Shown here piece by piece: positions 1 to 61,811 of a stretch of DNA of 64,000 bases. This DNA comes from Schleiferiaceae bacterium (lineage in GTDB: Bacteria; Bacteroidota; Bacteroidia; Flavobacteriales; Schleiferiaceae). The stretch lies in assembly GCA_029254375.1 (NCBI GenBank), contig JAQWXR010000021.1, positions 1-64,000 on the forward strand, read 5' to 3'. Position 1 is the first letter of the stretch. Each line of letters starts with the position of its first letter. Made by a program: the position numbers and the translations under genes. The notes below the pieces were generated by a model. That model made no database searches and had not been told where the DNA came from. It saw only the letters and a list, made by a program, of their open reading frames with translations.

Positions 1-744
1 CGGGCACGACTTGTGCTTTCCGGTGCAGCCCCAATCCGAGCGAGTTTGCTCGAAGAATTTGCCACGTTGGGTATCCATATTCAGGAAGTCTACGGAATGA
101 CCGAAAACCTAGGTATATCCACCGTGAATTTCCGCGGAAAAGTGAAAATAGGTACTGTGGGGCAAGCCTTTTCGGGCATGGAGGTGCGGATTGGAGAGGG
201 GAATGAGGTCCTAGTCAAGGGACCCACCTGCACATTGGGCTATTACAAAGAACCCTTGAAAACGGCCGAACTTTTTGAGGGAGGTTACTTGCACACCGGG
301 GACTGTGGAAGCATTGATTCTGAAGGCTACCTAACGATTACGGGGCGAATCAAGGATATCTTTAAAACCTCTAAAGGCAAATATGTCGCACCGGCCCCCA
401 TAGAAAATCTGTTAATGGCCAATGACGACATGGCGCAAGTATGCGTGGCGGGATTTAATCTCCCACAGCCTGTAGCCCTAGCTGTGCTTACAGAGGAGGC
501 GCGCACATCCGATCGAAAGCCGATTTATCTAAACGCCAAAGCGCTTTTAGCCGCTATAAATGAAGGGTTGACTGCACATGAGAGACTATCCAAACTCATA
601 TGGGTTTCAGAAGACTGGACCGTGGAAAATGGATTCCTCACGCCGAGTTTGAAGATCAAACGGAACGTCGTGGAGGCTTTTTATATGGAACGGATTAGCG
701 CCGCAATGGATTCCCCTAAATCCGTTGTTTTCTTTGAGGCCTAA
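1..744 (+). CDS. AMP-forming long-chain acyl-CoA synthetase, C-terminal part (5' end outside window)
   Basis: The open frame runs in from the left edge, so only about the last 247 residues are seen. The adenylate-forming enzyme signature is clear: a GMTEN motif near fragment residues 32-36, a YLHTGD motif followed by GYLTITGR, then KDIFKTSKGKYVAP, which matches the hinge and C-terminal lid of long-chain fatty acid-CoA ligases. In this family the enzyme activates a fatty acid as acyl-AMP and transfers it to coenzyme A. The substrate cannot be read from the fragment. It ends 26 bases before coaX, which has its own promoter. The family is certain and the fatty-acyl specificity is an inference. 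Confidence 0.85.
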   Translation, partial: RARLVLSGAAPIRASLLEEFATLGIHIQEVYGMTENLGISTVNFRGKVKIGTVGQAFSGMEVRIGEGNEVLVKGPTCTLGYYKEPLKTAELFEGGYLHTGDCGSIDSEGYLTITGRIKDIFKTSKGKYVAPAPIENLLMANDDMAQVCVAGFNLPQPVALAVLTEEARTSDRKPIYLNAKALLAAINEGLTAHERLSKLIWVSEDWTVENGFLTPSLKIKRNVVEAFYMERISAAMDSPKSVVFFEA

Positions 745-765
745 GCTCTTCGAGACCTACCTTTG
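734..765 (+). promoter_or_regulatory. Bacteroidota-type promoter of coaX, with almost no leader
   Basis: TTG at 734-736 is followed after 21 bases by TACCTTTG at 758-765, which matches the Bacteroidota -33/-7 consensus TTG N17-23 TAnnTTTG. The coaX ATG begins only five bases after the -7 box, so transcription would start at or next to the start codon. The transcript start is inferred, not seen. Confidence 0.6.
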
Positions 766-770
766 AGCAT

Positions 771-1475
771 ATGTTAAGCGCAGTCGAATTAGGGAATACC
801 CGAACCAAAGTCTGTCGATTTAACGCTAAGGGTGAGCAGATGGCAGACACTCGCCACTATGACGGTGGGCATACGATTTGGCAGAATGAAATTCCGATAG
901 GCGATATTCTGCGTATAGCAAATACAGCGGCTGTAGACTTGGCTTCTTCTTTCGAGGATCAGATCGTCACGTTGTCGAATCCCTGGCCTTTCCTTTTTGA
1001 CTGTTCTCCCCAAATTGGTATCGACCGTTGTTTGGCTGCGCTAGGGGCAAGGCAAAAGAAGGCCGAAGGGAGTATTGCAGTTATTTCATGTGGAACCTGT
1101 TTGACAGCCACTCTTTTGACTGAGGACAATACTCTTCTAGGGGGTCCAATATCTCCAGGGTGGTCCACGCGTCTACAATCCATGGCGGATTATGCCCCGG
1201 CATTACCTCGATTACTTCCCGCGATCCAACACCTCTCGTCCAAAGGAAGTCAGAGCACTCAGGACAGTATGTTGCAGGGTTCATTTGGCGGAATGCTCGC
1301 GGAGATAGAGCACATTATTAGGGTTTGGAGGCAAGAATACCCGAATTTGACCGTTTTTTTAACTGGAGGGGATGGCCCGGCTTTTGCTAAACCATTGGAA
1401 AGCGGCATATTTGCGGCTTCGAATTTGGAGGCCCTCGGGCTTTATGCTCAGTACAACTATGAACAAAATCTCTAG
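771..1475 (+). CDS. coaX: Type III pantothenate kinase (CoaX) family protein, catalytic residues substituted
   Basis: At 234 residues it has the ASKHA-fold layout of CoaX, which phosphorylates pantothenate in coenzyme A synthesis. Recognisable motifs are LGNTRTK at 7-13, GIDR at 83-86, an SCGTCLT segment at 106-112, LGGPISPG, and a late LTGGDG. Key positions differ from the family: the phosphate-loop Asp of DxGNT is Glu6, the catalytic Asp of the D-x-G-T motif is Ser106, and the Asp two or three residues later in that motif is Thr114. Activity is therefore doubtful; it may be a degenerate or repurposed CoaX. The 3' end overlaps the next gene by 17 bases. Confidence 0.8.
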   Translation: MLSAVELGNTRTKVCRFNAKGEQMADTRHYDGGHTIWQNEIPIGDILRIANTAAVDLASSFEDQIVTLSNPWPFLFDCSPQIGIDRCLAALGARQKKAEGSIAVISCGTCLTATLLTEDNTLLGGPISPGWSTRLQSMADYAPALPRLLPAIQHLSSKGSQSTQDSMLQGSFGGMLAEIEHIIRVWRQEYPNLTVFLTGGDGPAFAKPLESGIFAASNLEALGLYAQYNYEQNL

Positions 1476-15502: not shown

Positions 15503-15510
15503 CAAAGGTA
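15503..15510 (-). promoter_or_regulatory. -7 promoter element for the purH-mre operon
   Basis: On the minus strand this reads TACCTTTG, a perfect TAnnTTTG box, 23 bases before the purH ATG. No TTG is found 17-23 bases upstream of it, so only the -7 half is supported. Confidence 0.5.
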
Positions 15511-17244: not shown

Positions 17245-17631
17245 TTAATTGAAGAGGGTCCAGATTTTTGGGACGAACAATACGATGGCTATGGCCACTG
17301 CAAAAGCGGAAGCGATGAGCACTGAGCCGGCGGCCAAATCTTTAGTTCTCTTTATGGCAGGATGATCCTCTGGATGAACAAAATCGCACAAGGCTTCCAG
17401 CGCCGTATTCATTAACTCCAAACCCAAAATCAGCCCAAACAGACTAAATAAAATTATCCACTCAAAAAGGGAAACCTCCAAAAAATAAGCGATTAAACTC
17501 ACAATGATCATGGCCAAAAAGTGGATGCGCACGGTCAGTTCACTTTCCCAACTTAAGGCAATTCCATTGACTGCTTGTCGAAGGCGCATCAAACCATGTA
17601 AAAAGAGTTTTTGAATGGGTTGTCTCTCCAT
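17245..17631 (-). CDS. dgkA: Diacylglycerol/undecaprenol kinase, DagK family
   Basis: 128 residues of the small trimeric membrane kinase family. Three membrane segments are visible (about 37-52, 57-75, 100-120), with the catalytic signature ELMNTALEAL around the conserved Glu, and AIKRTKDLAAGSVL, which matches KxxKDxxAgaVl. Members phosphorylate diacylglycerol or undecaprenol; which applies cannot be told from the sequence, and undecaprenol kinase is plausible in a cell-envelope setting. The start codon lies four bases after a perfect -7 box. Confidence 0.9.
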   Translation of the reverse strand: MERQPIQKLFLHGLMRLRQAVNGIALSWESELTVRIHFLAMIIVSLIAYFLEVSLFEWIILFSLFGLILGLELMNTALEALCDFVHPEDHPAIKRTKDLAAGSVLIASAFAVAIAIVLFVPKIWTLFN

Positions 17632-17635
17632 GTTT

Positions 17636-17643
17636 CAAAGGTA
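17636..17643 (-). promoter_or_regulatory. -7 promoter element for dgkA, four bases before the start codon
   Basis: The minus strand reads TACCTTTG then AAAC and ATG. A Bacteroidota -7 box at this distance puts the transcript start at the A of the start codon, so the mRNA would be leaderless. No -33 TTG is found at the right distance. Confidence 0.5.
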
Positions 17644-27756: not shown

Positions 27757-30107
27757 GGTAGTAGTTGCAATTTAGCAAACTTGAGGAGCAATTTTTTCTC
27801 CCCAGCGTTATCAAATTCAATTGTGGCTTTACGCTCGGTGTCTTCCCCGGTTAATTCGGTTACTTTCCCTATGCCAAATCGGTCATGGACTACCCGCAAT
27901 CCAACTGCCAAATCCAGGTTTAGGGCGTGTTGACTATTCCCGGTGGAGGCTGACGCCTGTTGCATTGGCTTGAGCGCGGTAGGTCTTCGGAAGCGAACCG
28001 GGGCAGGCGGGGGACTGCTTAATCGTTCCGCTGGCTTCGTGGACTTTGGAGCAGTTCGCACTGATCCTCGTTGCCGACTCGAAGGTACATCAAAGGCATC
28101 TCGTAATTCATTCGGAATGGAATAGCTTGGTTGAAACTCCGGAATGTGAATGTCCAAAGTAGCTTCATCAAGCTCTTCCAAGAATCGACTAGGCTCACAA
28201 TCGATGAGCTTTCCCCAACGATAGCGAACGTGGGCATAGGTCAGGAACGCCCTCTTTTCTGCGCGAGTCAGAGCAACATAGAATAATCGACGTTCCTCTT
28301 CTAGGTCCGAGCGCGAACCCATTGACATCATGGATGGAAATAAATTCTCTTCCATCCCCACTACAAATACGACAGGGAATTCCAAACCCTTGGCTAGGTG
28401 AATCGTCATGAGATTGACCTTAGGGCGGTCATCGTCATCTAGGCGATCTGCATCCGTCAACAGGGCTATATCTTGCAAGAAGGCGCCCAAGCTAGGGTCG
28501 CCATCTTCCACCTGCTGTTGTTGCTCCACAAAATCTTTAATCCCGTTCAGCAATTCTTGAACGTTCTCATAGCGGGAAATGCCTTCGGGCGTTTTGTCAT
28601 CCGAAAGCATCTTAATCAAGCCACTGCTCCGAGCAATATGCTCCACGACATCAAAGGCATCCTTCTGTTCTGCGATGATTTGATAGGAAGTAACGAGGTC
28701 AATAAATGCCAAAAGACGCTCCTGCGTGGGCTTGTTGATATTCACGTTCCACTCACTCGCCTGACTGGCCGCATCCCAAAGGCTTGCTTGCCGATCATTG
28801 GCAGCAATGGTCAATCTGGCCAAGGTGGTATCGCCAATCCCTCTGGCGGGAAGATTAATGACGCGTCGAAAAGCTTCTTCGTCTTTAGGATTCACCGTGA
28901 GGCGGACATAGGCCATTAGGTCTTTGACTTCTTTCCGCTGGTAAAATGAGAGGCCTCCAAATATCCGGTAGGGGATGTTTCGTCGGCGGAAGGCATCTTC
29001 AAAAGCACGGGACTGCGCATTCGTCCGATACAAGATGGCAAAATGGTCATGTGGGGTGTGCTCCCGCATATTTAACTCCCAAATCGTCTGAGCTACAAAA
29101 TTTCCTTCATCGGAATCCGACACACTCTTGTGCACTACTATGCGCTCGCCTTTTGGGTTTTCAGTCCAAACATTTTTCTCCAGTTGATCTTGGTTGTGCT
29201 TGATGAGCGAATTCGCAGCCTCCACAATGCATTGACTGCTGCGGTAGTTTTGTTCCAATTTAAACAGCTTGGCGTCCGAATAGTCTTTTTGGAAATTGAG
29301 AATGTTTCGAATATTGGCTCCACGGAATGCATATATACTTTGGGCATCATCACCCACCACGCACAGGTTCTCAAAGCGAGAGGCCAGAGCCTTAACGATG
29401 AGGTATTGCGAGTGGTTGGTATCCTGGTATTCATCAACCAAAATGTATTTGAAACGGTCTTGGTAGCGAGCGAGTGCATCGGGAAATTTAACAAAGAGCT
29501 CATTCGTTTTCAGTAGCAAGTCATCAAAGTCCATGGCGCCAGCGCGAAAACACTTTTCTGTGTAGGCAACGTATAGATCCCCAAGTTTGGGCATTCGAGC
29601 TGAAGCATCGGCTTCTTGCAAATCGGCGCGACTTTGGTAGGCTTTTGGAGTTATGAGGTTGTTCTTGTAGGAGGAGATCCGACCAGCGACTCCTTTCACC
29701 TTATAAATGTCCTTATCCAAGTCCCGCTCTTTTATCAGGCCAGCAATGACCTTTTGGGCATCTTCACTATCATAAATGGTGAAATTGGAAGGGTAGCCCA
29801 ATCTGTGTCCTTCGATGCGAAGAATGCGTGCAAAGACGGAGTGAAAGGTTCCCATCCATAAATTCTTGGCTTCTGTGCCCCCAAGGAGGGCCTCAATCCG
29901 ACCCTTCATTTCCCGTGCCGCTTTGTTGGTGAAAGTGAGGGAGAGAATGTTGAAAGGATCGACGCCTTTCTCCATGAGATAGGCTATTCGATAGGTCAGC
30001 ACGCGGGTCTTTCCCGATCCCGCGCCAGCAATAACCATGACAGGGCCCTCCGTCTGCTGGACAGCTTGCTGTTGAACCGAATTGAGGGCAGATAAATAAC
30101 TGGACAT
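27753..30107 (-). CDS. uvrD: ATP-dependent 3'-5' DNA helicase UvrD/PcrA
   Basis: 784 residues, superfamily 1A. Motifs in order: I AGAGSGKTRVL (about 28-38), Ia TFTNKAAREM, II VDEYQDTN, III GDDAQSIYAFRGA, IV NYRSS, V TIHLAKGLEFPVVFVVG, VI RRLFYVALTRAE. The C-terminal 100 or so residues are a linker plus a Tudor-like end (GLRVVHDRFGIGKVTE), as in PcrA. The enzyme unwinds DNA in nucleotide excision and mismatch repair and clears RecA or stalled polymerase. PcrA and UvrD cannot be separated by sequence alone here. It is the first gene of a transcript diverging from the ribosomal operon. Confidence 0.95.
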   Translation of the reverse strand: MSSYLSALNSVQQQAVQQTEGPVMVIAGAGSGKTRVLTYRIAYLMEKGVDPFNILSLTFTNKAAREMKGRIEALLGGTEAKNLWMGTFHSVFARILRIEGHRLGYPSNFTIYDSEDAQKVIAGLIKERDLDKDIYKVKGVAGRISSYKNNLITPKAYQSRADLQEADASARMPKLGDLYVAYTEKCFRAGAMDFDDLLLKTNELFVKFPDALARYQDRFKYILVDEYQDTNHSQYLIVKALASRFENLCVVGDDAQSIYAFRGANIRNILNFQKDYSDAKLFKLEQNYRSSQCIVEAANSLIKHNQDQLEKNVWTENPKGERIVVHKSVSDSDEGNFVAQTIWELNMREHTPHDHFAILYRTNAQSRAFEDAFRRRNIPYRIFGGLSFYQRKEVKDLMAYVRLTVNPKDEEAFRRVINLPARGIGDTTLARLTIAANDRQASLWDAASQASEWNVNINKPTQERLLAFIDLVTSYQIIAEQKDAFDVVEHIARSSGLIKMLSDDKTPEGISRYENVQELLNGIKDFVEQQQQVEDGDPSLGAFLQDIALLTDADRLDDDDRPKVNLMTIHLAKGLEFPVVFVVGMEENLFPSMMSMGSRSDLEEERRLFYVALTRAEKRAFLTYAHVRYRWGKLIDCEPSRFLEELDEATLDIHIPEFQPSYSIPNELRDAFDVPSSRQRGSVRTAPKSTKPAERLSSPPPAPVRFRRPTALKPMQQASASTGNSQHALNLDLAVGLRVVHDRFGIGKVTELTGEDTERKATIEFDNAGEKKLLLKFAKLQLLP

Positions 30108-30117
30108 GGAAGGAATC

Positions 30118-30125
30118 CAAAGGTA
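30118..30125 (-). promoter_or_regulatory. -7 promoter element for uvrD
   Basis: The minus strand reads TACCTTTG, ten bases before the uvrD ATG at 30107. This implies a leader of only a few bases. No -33 TTG is seen at the right spacing. Confidence 0.5.
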
Positions 30126-56604: not shown

Positions 56605-58112
56605 GCGAGAAGACTTTTGCCTGTCATGGCATCGGGTTTTGGGATGCCCATCCAATCCAAAATGCTCGGTGCAACGTCCCCAAGTACGCCAGAATTTAGG
56701 TGAACCTGGCTCAAATTTTCCGCACTCACCAAATGGAAGGGGACCGGTTGAGTAGTATGCGCTGTGTGAGGACTCCCATCCGGGTTTTTCATGCAATCCG
56801 CATTGCCATGATCTGCCAAGATGAAGAAGCTGTATCCATGCTTTAATCCAGCTTCTACAATGGCTTGACTGCATTGATCCACGGTTTCGACCGCTTTAAT
56901 GGCGGCTTCGAGACTCCCTGTGTGGCCAACCATATCAGGATTGGCAAAATTCAAGCAAACAAAGTCGCAGCTTTCGCCTTCCAACTCGGGGATGATGGCA
57001 TCGCGTATGTCAAAGGCAGACATTTCCGGTTGTAGATCATAGGTGGCGACTTTAGGGGAAGGGCACAGCAGACGACGCTCCCCCTCAAAGGCTTCTTCAC
57101 GACCTCCACTAAAGAAAAAGGTCACATGTGGATATTTTTCGGTTTCAGCAATGCGAATTTGACGTTGCCCCGCTCGTTCTAGGACCTCGCCCAAGGTGTC
57201 TGAAAGATTGTCTTTTTCAAAAACAGACCTGACCCCATGGAAGGTCTTGTCGTAGTTGGTCAATGTGTAGAAATCCGTTGCTATGGGTTCCATGCCAAAT
57301 TCAATCATGGCCTCTTGGCTCAATACTTTGGTTAATTCTCGGCCGCGATCTGTTCGATAATTGAAGAAGAGCACTACATCGCCATGCTGAATTTTGGCAT
57401 CGTCCAAAATGATGGGTTCGATAAACTCATCGCTCTGCCCACGGCTATAAGCGGAGGTCACGGCCTCAGACGCACTGCCATGAAAAATCAAACCCTGGCC
57501 ATATACCAAAGCGTCGTAGGCTTTCTTTACTCGTTCCCAGCGTTTGTCTCGATCCATTGCAAAGTACCGCCCAACGATACTCGCTACGCGCCCTGTCGTT
57601 TGTGCCATATGGGCCTCCACCTCGGCAAGGTAAGTTTGTCCCCCTTGAGGATCTGTATCGCGCCCATCCGTAAAGGCGTGAAGGGCGACATCCTCGAGTC
57701 CGGCTTCGTGAAACAGAGAAAGCAAGCCCTTCAAGTGAGCGATATGACTGTGGACTCCGCCGTCAGAAACCAAGCCTAAAAGGTGCAAACGTTTGCCTTT
57801 TGCTGATGCAAGCAGGTCGAGGAAGACCTTGTTTTGAAGTAGGCTTTTTTCTTCGATGGCCAAGTCGATTTTTACCAAGTCTTGGTAGACTACACGTCCA
57901 GCCCCGAGGTTCATATGACCCACTTCCGAATTGCCCATTTGGCCTTCGGGGAGACCCACGGCGCGGCCTGAGGCCTCCAATTGGGCTGTTGGGTAGCGAT
58001 GGAGACCATCAACAAAAGGGGTATGGCCAAGGTCCACCGCCGAAACCTCTGGATTGGCTGCAATGCCCCAACCATCCAAGATCATTAAAACAGCTTTTTT
58101 CTTAGCACTCAT
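56601..58112 (-). CDS. gpmI: Phosphoglycerate mutase, cofactor-independent
   Basis: 503 residues from ATG 58112 (SAKKKAVLMILDGWG); a TTG nine bases upstream lies in the putative -7 box and is not used. The alkaline-phosphatase-fold signatures are present: LDGWG with the metal Asp, GNSEVGHMNLGAGR with the catalytic Ser, the DGRDTDPQ block, and the metal cluster NFANPDMVGHTG and ILADHGNAD. It interconverts 3- and 2-phosphoglycerate with two manganese ions. It is the first gene of a three-gene operon with map and a methyltransferase. Confidence 0.96.
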   Translation of the reverse strand: MSAKKKAVLMILDGWGIAANPEVSAVDLGHTPFVDGLHRYPTAQLEASGRAVGLPEGQMGNSEVGHMNLGAGRVVYQDLVKIDLAIEEKSLLQNKVFLDLLASAKGKRLHLLGLVSDGGVHSHIAHLKGLLSLFHEAGLEDVALHAFTDGRDTDPQGGQTYLAEVEAHMAQTTGRVASIVGRYFAMDRDKRWERVKKAYDALVYGQGLIFHGSASEAVTSAYSRGQSDEFIEPIILDDAKIQHGDVVLFFNYRTDRGRELTKVLSQEAMIEFGMEPIATDFYTLTNYDKTFHGVRSVFEKDNLSDTLGEVLERAGQRQIRIAETEKYPHVTFFFSGGREEAFEGERRLLCPSPKVATYDLQPEMSAFDIRDAIIPELEGESCDFVCLNFANPDMVGHTGSLEAAIKAVETVDQCSQAIVEAGLKHGYSFFILADHGNADCMKNPDGSPHTAHTTQPVPFHLVSAENLSQVHLNSGVLGDVAPSILDWMGIPKPDAMTGKSLLA

Positions 58113-58118
58113 AGGCCG

Positions 58119-58126
58119 CAAAGGTA
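58119..58126 (-). promoter_or_regulatory. -7 promoter element for gpmI, six bases before the start codon
   Basis: The minus strand reads TACCTTTG then CGGCCT and ATG. As at coaX and dgkA, the predicted transcript start is within a base or two of the start codon. No -33 TTG is found at 17-23 bases. Confidence 0.45.
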
Positions 58127-60732: not shown

Positions 60733-61799
60733 GACTTAGAGCGGGATAGAAAGGACTGTACAAATAAAATTAATCCAATGACTACAAGTGGAATACTTAG
60801 CCATTGGCCCATGTTGAGGCTCATTCCAGCCTCGAATGCTTTCTGGTTGGCTTTAAAAAATTCAATCAGAATTCGAAAGCCAAAAACAGTCACTAAGAAG
60901 AGGCCAAAAATGCGCCCTTCATACTGCAGCTGTTTACGCTCGCCTAAGAAGAAAAGGAAGCCAAAAATCACTAAATAAGCAAGGGACTCTGCCAGCTGAG
61001 AGGGCAATCGAGGAATGCCATAGACGGTAAGGTGAAATTTCCCATTGTTTGAGGGTTGGAGGTAGGCATCTTCAGGAATGTAGAGGTGACGATTGTCTTT
61101 CTTCTGGAGGTTAAATAGCGGGATGAGATGCACCTCAACAATGGACTGCAAAGCGCCAATTTCTGTCTTTCCTTTTGGGGTGATGATCAAATCATATTGT
61201 GGAAGGCTCAGGCTATCTGTTTCCAGGACCTCACCGGTCGATTCGAATTGCAAGGATTCGACGGCATTTGAAAAGTAGGTCTCCGAATAGTCTAGCACGG
61301 GGCGTAGAAAGACGGTTTCAAACTGTTGATTGGCTGGCTCGCCGTAGATCTCCGAATTGGTAAAATTCCCCAAGCGAATAAAGGCCCCAGCCAAAGCGAC
61401 CGTAATCACCACGCGATCCATAAGCCAGAGAAAGGATTTTCCGCTGCTTTTGAGTTGCGTTTTTGTGAAATAATACAAGACTAAGGGAATAACAACAGCT
61501 GCTCCGTGGGAAGCTAAACCACCTTTCCATGGCATAAATATTTCGGTCACATGCTGCTTGTAATAGGCCCAATCATAGAAGAAAACATGCCCTAAGCGCG
61601 CGCCGATGATCGTTGCGACTACCGTGTATATCAACAGGTTGTCCAGCACCTCTTGGGAAACGCCTTCTTTGGAAAAATATCGACGCATGAGGTAGAACCC
61701 AGCCAGGAAACCCGCAAAAAAGAGCATCTGGTAATAGCGCAAAAAGAGGGGGCCGATTTCAATACCGCGTTCGGCTGCCCAAGTCAAGGTTAGTAGCAT
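60729..61799 (-). CDS. lgt: Prolipoprotein diacylglyceryl transferase, with long insert
   Basis: 356 residues from ATG 61799, against about 290 in E. coli. Lgt moves diacylglycerol from phosphatidylglycerol to the lipobox cysteine. Conserved pieces are WKGGLASHGA with the essential His, FIRLGNFTNSEIYG with the essential Arg, Asn and Glu, and FRILIEFFKANQ with Arg and Glu. Two oddities: an insert of roughly 85 residues follows the RLGNF motif, rich in short beta-type segments (TDSLSLPQYDLIITPKG), and the usual HPSQLYE reads LPSQLAES, losing His and Tyr. About seven membrane helices are seen. A -7-like box lies four bases upstream. Confidence 0.92.
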   Translation of the reverse strand: MLLTLTWAAERGIEIGPLFLRYYQMLFFAGFLAGFYLMRRYFSKEGVSQEVLDNLLIYTVVATIIGARLGHVFFYDWAYYKQHVTEIFMPWKGGLASHGAAVVIPLVLYYFTKTQLKSSGKSFLWLMDRVVITVALAGAFIRLGNFTNSEIYGEPANQQFETVFLRPVLDYSETYFSNAVESLQFESTGEVLETDSLSLPQYDLIITPKGKTEIGALQSIVEVHLIPLFNLQKKDNRHLYIPEDAYLQPSNNGKFHLTVYGIPRLPSQLAESLAYLVIFGFLFFLGERKQLQYEGRIFGLFLVTVFGFRILIEFFKANQKAFEAGMSLNMGQWLSIPLVVIGLILFVQSFLSRSKS

Positions 61800-61803
61800 A
61801 AAA

Positions 61804-61811
61804 CGAAGGTA
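61804..61811 (-). promoter_or_regulatory. Possible -7 element for lgt, four bases before the start codon
   Basis: The minus strand reads TACCTTCG, one base off TAnnTTTG, then TTTT and ATG. The spacing equals that at dgkA. It lies in the 48-base gap between yidD and lgt, and no -33 element is seen. Confidence 0.4.

Follow-up and report, generated by a model that had tools for sequence, protein, structure and literature searches.

The window, i.e., the whole 64,000-nt stretch of DNA that was analysed, comes from the genome of a Schleiferiaceae bacterium (G000; 1.70 Mb in 53 contigs, estimated 88.5% complete). Near its beginning, an AMP-ligase gene stops at 742-744, and coaX starts 26 bp downstream on the same strand. 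Short T-rich boxes lie ahead of the start codons of coaX and of several other genes, and the features on which this study is based are the following.

734-736, plus strand: TTG put forward as a -33 element of coaX; codon material near the 3' end of the AMP-ligase gene, unsupported as a promoter element.
758-765, plus strand: candidate -7 promoter box of coaX, TACCTTTG, N5 (AGCAT) ahead of the ATG.
771-773, plus strand: start codon ATG of coaX, whose A771 is the transcription start predicted from the sequence.
771-1475, plus strand: coaX, type III pantothenate kinase (PF03309, Pan_kinase, E 7e-21).
17636-17643, minus strand: box of dgkA, TACCTTTG, N4, ATG at 17631 (DAGK_prokar, Pfam).
30118-30125, minus strand: box of uvrD, TACCTTTG, N10, ATG at 30107 (UvrD, Pfam).
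58119-58126, minus strand: box of gpmI, TACCTTTG, N6, ATG at 58112 (iPGM_N/Metalloenzyme, Pfam).
61804-61811, minus strand: box of lgt, TACCTTCG, N4, ATG at 61799 (LGT, Pfam).

The coaX layout described in the first-pass annotation (TTG, N21, box, N5, ATG) proved exact on direct reading, and the spacings quoted there for dgkA, gpmI, lgt and uvrD all agree with the coordinates. From the last stop (33 bases upstream) to a conserved GNTR motif near the N-terminus, the coaX frame holds a single start codon, so that the distance from box to start is independent of annotation. The placement of the box fits a leaderless transcript, and coaX thus stands, in silico, as the candidate it had been taken for. 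At uvrD, the predicted leader is about 5-6 nt long, and this gene would not be leaderless. The leadered class is exemplified in the window by purH, which has a good box at 15503-15510 on the minus strand, at N23 (leader about 18 nt).

The short spacing had been proposed as a genome-wide habit, with a peak expected at 4-6 bases, and when boxes were counted over the gap k between box and ATG, the peak was found exactly there. In 807 kb of G000, 39, 34 and 13 boxes occurred at k = 4, 5 and 6, respectively; the flanking gaps k = 3 and k = 7 were low, with 3 and 5 boxes, respectively; the reversed-sequence control gave 3, 5 and 5 at k = 4-6. The contigs making up these 807 kb were chosen largely from the list of N5 matches, which inflates the count at k = 5 and involved no selection for k = 4 or k = 6. 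Over the whole genome, TANNTTTG-N5-ATG had 43 matches versus 10 for the reversed control pattern, a count that is independent of gene calls. With gene starts taken from a home-made gene caller (685 genes called), TAHHTTTG stood 4-6 bases ahead of the ATG at 56 of 607 called starts, versus 4 of 6016 internal ATGs that are in frame and 3 of 10114 that are out of frame. The genome-wide habit is thus borne out by the peak, by the enrichment at starts over internal ATGs, and by the conservation across the genus that is described below.

Strict k = 5 pairs numbered 31 in the 807 kb versus 39 in the whole 1703 kb, and the k = 5 count was therefore scaled by 0.60 for estimating the share of boxes at short spacing. 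After this correction, 112 boxes lie no further than 50 nt from a start, 55 of them (49%) at 3-7 bases; at divergent genes, the corresponding share is 36 of 66 (55%), and the uncorrected shares are 64/121 and 42/72. Because most divergent genes (137/212) are without the strict box, the leaderless share applies to recognisable promoters only. A position weight matrix brought no useful gain in sensitivity over the strict pattern.

It had also been claimed that coaX has a full promoter, and this part did not hold. The TTTG that includes the TTG proposed at -33 is made of codons of the upstream AMP-ligase gene (TTT GAG GCC TAA), and the leaderless-type class as a whole has no detectable -33 element. 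A TTTG at a distance of N19-23 from the box was present in 1 of 59 leaderless-type and 4 of 52 leadered promoters, i.e., no -33 element was seen in either class, and in the 59 leaderless-type promoters none of the positions from -32 to -1, counted from the box, exceeded 0.18 bit. Within the box itself, C is preferred at the two free positions in these promoters. The housekeeping promoter of the Bacteroidota, recognized by sigma-ABfr, is given in the available text of two reports as -33 TTTG and -7 TAnnTTTG (PMC6847099, PMC7366714). The TAnnTTTG box was found here, and TTTG near -33 was not; in the accessible part of one of these reports, the -33 element of F. johnsoniae is likewise weak and poorly visible (PMC6847099).

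The position of the presumed transcription start (+1) can be judged from the bases around the start codon. A pyrimidine is the usual base preceding a transcription start, and -1 was a pyrimidine at 47 of the 55 ATG genes with a box versus 349 of 544 others (p 0.0015), alike for k = 4, 5 and 6. The choice of start codon points the same way. In nine GC-rich genomes of the genus (G001, G002, G005, G006, G007, G010, G017, G019 and G020), N4-GTG was counted 123 times versus 18 in the control, and N4-TTG 31 times versus 34 (Fisher 7e-9), a grouping that was made after coaX and the counts had been seen and for which GC was measured in G020 only (0.597) and inferred in the others. Over all 22 genus genomes, the excess of GTG is weaker (201 versus 102), TTG stands at 193 versus 168, and ATG at N5 sums to 769 versus 130. 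The start codons that follow the box hence begin with a purine usable as +1, ATG and GTG being enriched and TTG not, a pattern that transcription starting on this purine would produce.

In the part of the F. johnsoniae study that is available, candidates whose box lay 4 or 5 nt from the transcription start were accepted as probable promoters (PMC6847099). By this spacing, +1 after a gap of 4-5 would be the first base of the start codon or the base preceding it. The same published spacing, together with the occurrence of N5 and N6, leaves room for transcription to begin a base or two further upstream, giving leaders of 1-3 nt instead of none. We regard this as unlikely, although it deserves serious attention, as the pyrimidine at -1 for k = 4-6 alike and the purine-only starts favour +1 at the start codon itself.

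Conservation of the coaX box was followed through the genus, which is a clade of TMED14 and BACL7 metagenome-assembled genomes (MAGs) within the Schleiferiaceae. The box lies at N4 or N5 in 13 of 21 genus loci: before ATG in seven close relatives (one with TACCTTTA), as TAAATTTG-N4-GTG in five loci, and as TAAATTTG-N4-ATG in one. In the remaining eight, each from a different species, it lies at N10 with a predicted leader of 5-6 nt, so leaderlessness is not required for coaX. Such ultra-short leaders at N10 boxes are predicted at 8/8 coaX loci of one subclade (L056-L063), and also at uvrD. An alignment scan of contigs returned 22 coaX loci, mostly from the same genomes as those already compared, and a coaX search of G020 gave no match.

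With the co-directional AMP-ligase gene ending 26 bp before coaX, a leadered read-through transcript may exist too. Carried further, this would mean that the promoter is real, yet coaX is expressed mainly by read-through from the AMP-ligase gene, and most coaX mRNA is leadered and internal. The short gap on the same strand is compatible with such an arrangement, and the end of the AMP-ligase gene is recognisable in the closest relatives too. In five species, however, the box is still at N4 although the sequence upstream is seemingly unrelated to that of the closest relatives. We therefore find predominant read-through rather improbable at coaX, and it would leave the genome-wide result untouched.

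The other boxes were kept to different degrees. For lgt, the box is at N4 or N5 in 21/21 genomes with the gene (N4 in 20, N5 in one), in the variants TACCTTCG, TATCTTCG or TAACTTTA; a second lgt-like gene, present as two fragments in G011 and without a box, is outside the 21. For gpmI, the box was kept in 19/19 loci having an N-terminus, with 16 N4-GTG, one N4-ATG and two N6-ATG layouts, the last in the source genome and its nearest relative. The GTG starts of gpmI (L193-L202, L204-L209) are always 4 bases past the box, and ATG is used only in G000, G012 and G009; in four loci (L202, L203, L205 and L208) the box ends in A (TAnnTTTA). The dgkA box is at N4 or N5 in only 11 of 21 loci, at N39 in one, and nine are without any of the searched patterns. 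In the upstream flank (-50 to -13), the mean pairwise identity is 0.40 for lgt and 0.38 for gpmI, calculated on rows picked by the box pattern at N4 only (20/21 and 15/19, respectively). The box and its spacing are thus what is kept while the upstream flanks diverge.

A signal for translation initiation, such as a landing site for the ribosome or for protein S1, would likewise be conserved and keep a constant distance from the start codon, and the T-rich box might be read in this way rather than as a promoter. The position of genes in operons speaks strongly against this reading. Boxes at 3-7 bases were found at 42 of 212 divergent genes versus 8 of 290 operon-internal genes (Fisher 4e-10), the latter defined by a co-directional neighbour ending within 20 bp upstream, and for k = 4 boxes alone the numbers are 20 versus 4 (p 5e-5). 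A translation signal would be indifferent to operon position, since operon-internal genes also need translation, so this distribution argues for a promoter. In addition, the box exactly matches the published -7 box and is not found ahead of TTG starts, and we consider a translation signal very unlikely. It is hardly credible that miscalled starts or base composition created the peak, even with starts from a home-made caller and a sample enriched for N5 matches, given the whole-genome N5 excess that needs no gene calls, the unselected peaks at k = 4 and k = 6, the single start in the coaX frame, and the flat reversed-sequence and internal-ATG controls.

We propose, with a probability of about 0.86, that coaX is transcribed into a leaderless mRNA from a -7 box of the sigma-ABfr type, and that this layout occurs at about half of the recognisable promoters and is kept genus-wide. 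The housekeeping sigma factor would bind the box TACCTTTG at 758-765, and RNA polymerase would start 4-5 bases past it, on A771 or on the base preceding it, yielding a leaderless mRNA. By analogy with other organisms, the ribosome may then take the 5'-terminal AUG or GUG directly, without upstream contacts. The AUG/GUG layout would serve roughly half of the recognisable promoters, and would have been maintained across this genus of small-genome aquatic Flavobacteriales. In G000, at C8:3584-4087 and C44:25575-26012, a TAA that is a candidate stop of the upstream gene (frame not established) opens the next -7 box (TAAATTTG and TAATTTTG, respectively). If TAA is indeed the stop, then stop, promoter and leaderless start would be packed within about 15 bases.

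On the ribosome side, Bacteroidota hardly rely on Shine-Dalgarno pairing, if at all, and on leaderless mRNAs elsewhere, initiation at the 5'-terminal AUG is direct and involves no contacts to upstream mRNA. The ribosomal protein bS21 takes part in masking the anti-Shine-Dalgarno. Loss of bS21 was considered as an explanation of the leaderless habit and rejected: a search of 60 genomes found bS21 (PF01165) in 57, and in 21 of 22 within the genus, so the masking is not visibly lost. The 16S 3'-end pattern, sought for a changed anti-Shine-Dalgarno, was not found in any of the 22 genus genomes. Among order-mates, the 16S 3' ends of G098, G090 and G092 (L132, L133 and L134) carry CACCTCATT, CAACTCCTT and CATCTCATT, respectively, in place of the anti-Shine-Dalgarno CACCTCCTT. 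In the source genome, leadered genes have an A-rich stretch ahead of the start, which resembles the Kozak-like signals of F. johnsoniae.

How far the layout extends beyond the source genome was estimated from two kinds of counts. The share of boxes at 3-7 bases among those within 50 nt was, in small samples, 10/25 in G020 and 5/20 in G016, both of the same genus, and about 12/20 in G032, which belongs to another genus of the family. Other small samples gave 5/16 in G024, about 3/17 in G026 and 4/17 in G185, and an order-mate (G089) gave 2/39. G020, G032 and G185 were compared because of their high N5 counts; in the comparison genomes, stretches were taken by contig number or in fixed steps, irrespective of matches.

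The N5 pattern was in addition counted in 149 relatives and in 392 genomes of the phylum. The ratio of observed to control matches is very high in the genus (e.g., 42 versus 0 in G020), and within the family, N5 counts are high in g12 as well, and so they are in small genomes from other families (G118, 56 versus 15; G128, 54 versus 23; G185, 55 versus 9). For G185, the 4/17 share comes from a 140-kb sample and is not striking despite the high N5 count. High ratios also occur at low counts (G252, 13 versus 1; G353, 14 versus 1). In AT-rich genomes the reversed control is high too, and there the N5 count alone is a poor lineage marker.

The leaderless habit had been linked to the phylum, and this link is not supported: the transcript maps of three other Bacteroidota are low, as is the order-mate. 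Instead of a rule for the phylum, the unevenness of the N5 ratios indicates a lineage trait, perhaps with more than one origin, and the small-genome members of other families with many N5 boxes suggest a repeated origin of leaderless use. We put forward, tentatively and at slightly less than even odds, that in the TMED14/BACL7 clade genes with their own promoter mainly use leaderless initiation at AUG or GUG, that this large-scale use arose apart from the actinobacterial one, in a phylum whose ribosomes disregard Shine-Dalgarno pairing anyway, and that it possibly recurs in other small-genome Flavobacteriales.

Mapped Bacteroidota keep leaders on most of their mRNAs, with leaderless transcripts a small minority. 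A planktonic clade that is apparently leaderless at about half of its recognisable promoters makes Shine-Dalgarno-blind initiation by the ribosome testable, and for gene finding in these genomes, the box spacing provides a strong signal of where genes start.

Previous work on the phylum contains several hints of such transcripts. In the available portions of these publications, an AT-rich bias upstream of non-Shine-Dalgarno genes of Bacteroidetes was read as possibly leaderless (PMC5397173), leaderless mRNA is mentioned for some Flavobacteriia (PMC10783764), and the work on GeneMarkS-2 placed the FCB group under AT-rich ribosome-binding sites (PMC9581028). A survey of predicted leaderless genes, as far as its accessible text goes, found them in 1 of 37 Bacteroidetes/Chlorobi genomes (2.4%), scanned for Pribnow-like boxes only, and says that Bacteroidetes may be underestimated (PMC3160421). 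A literature search, with most subscription papers outside reach, returned no report of widespread leaderless expression in the TMED14/BACL7 clade.

Compared with known systems, the promoter described here shares its -7 box with the sigma-ABfr promoter and, as far as the accessible descriptions of the latter go, differs from it by having no detectable -33 element. The nearest mapped organisms belong to the same phylum and use the same box. According to the available parts of the respective reports, 3.7% of leaders in B. thetaiotaomicron are shorter than 10 nt (PMC7366714), 87% of those in F. johnsoniae are longer than 10 nt, leaving about 13% at 10 nt or less (PMC6847099), and 5.5% are leaderless in F. 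psychrophilum (PMC9723704). Leaderless transcripts thus appear to be rare there, whereas about half of the recognisable boxes would give rise to them here. Outside the phylum, on average 19% of genes in Actinobacteria and 39% in Deinococcus-Thermus are predicted to be leaderless in the accessible text of the survey (PMC3160421); these mRNAs share with those predicted here a fixed, short distance from box to start, and belong to another phylum with another sigma box. Leaderless transcription is already known, and what is new here is the lineage and the extent.
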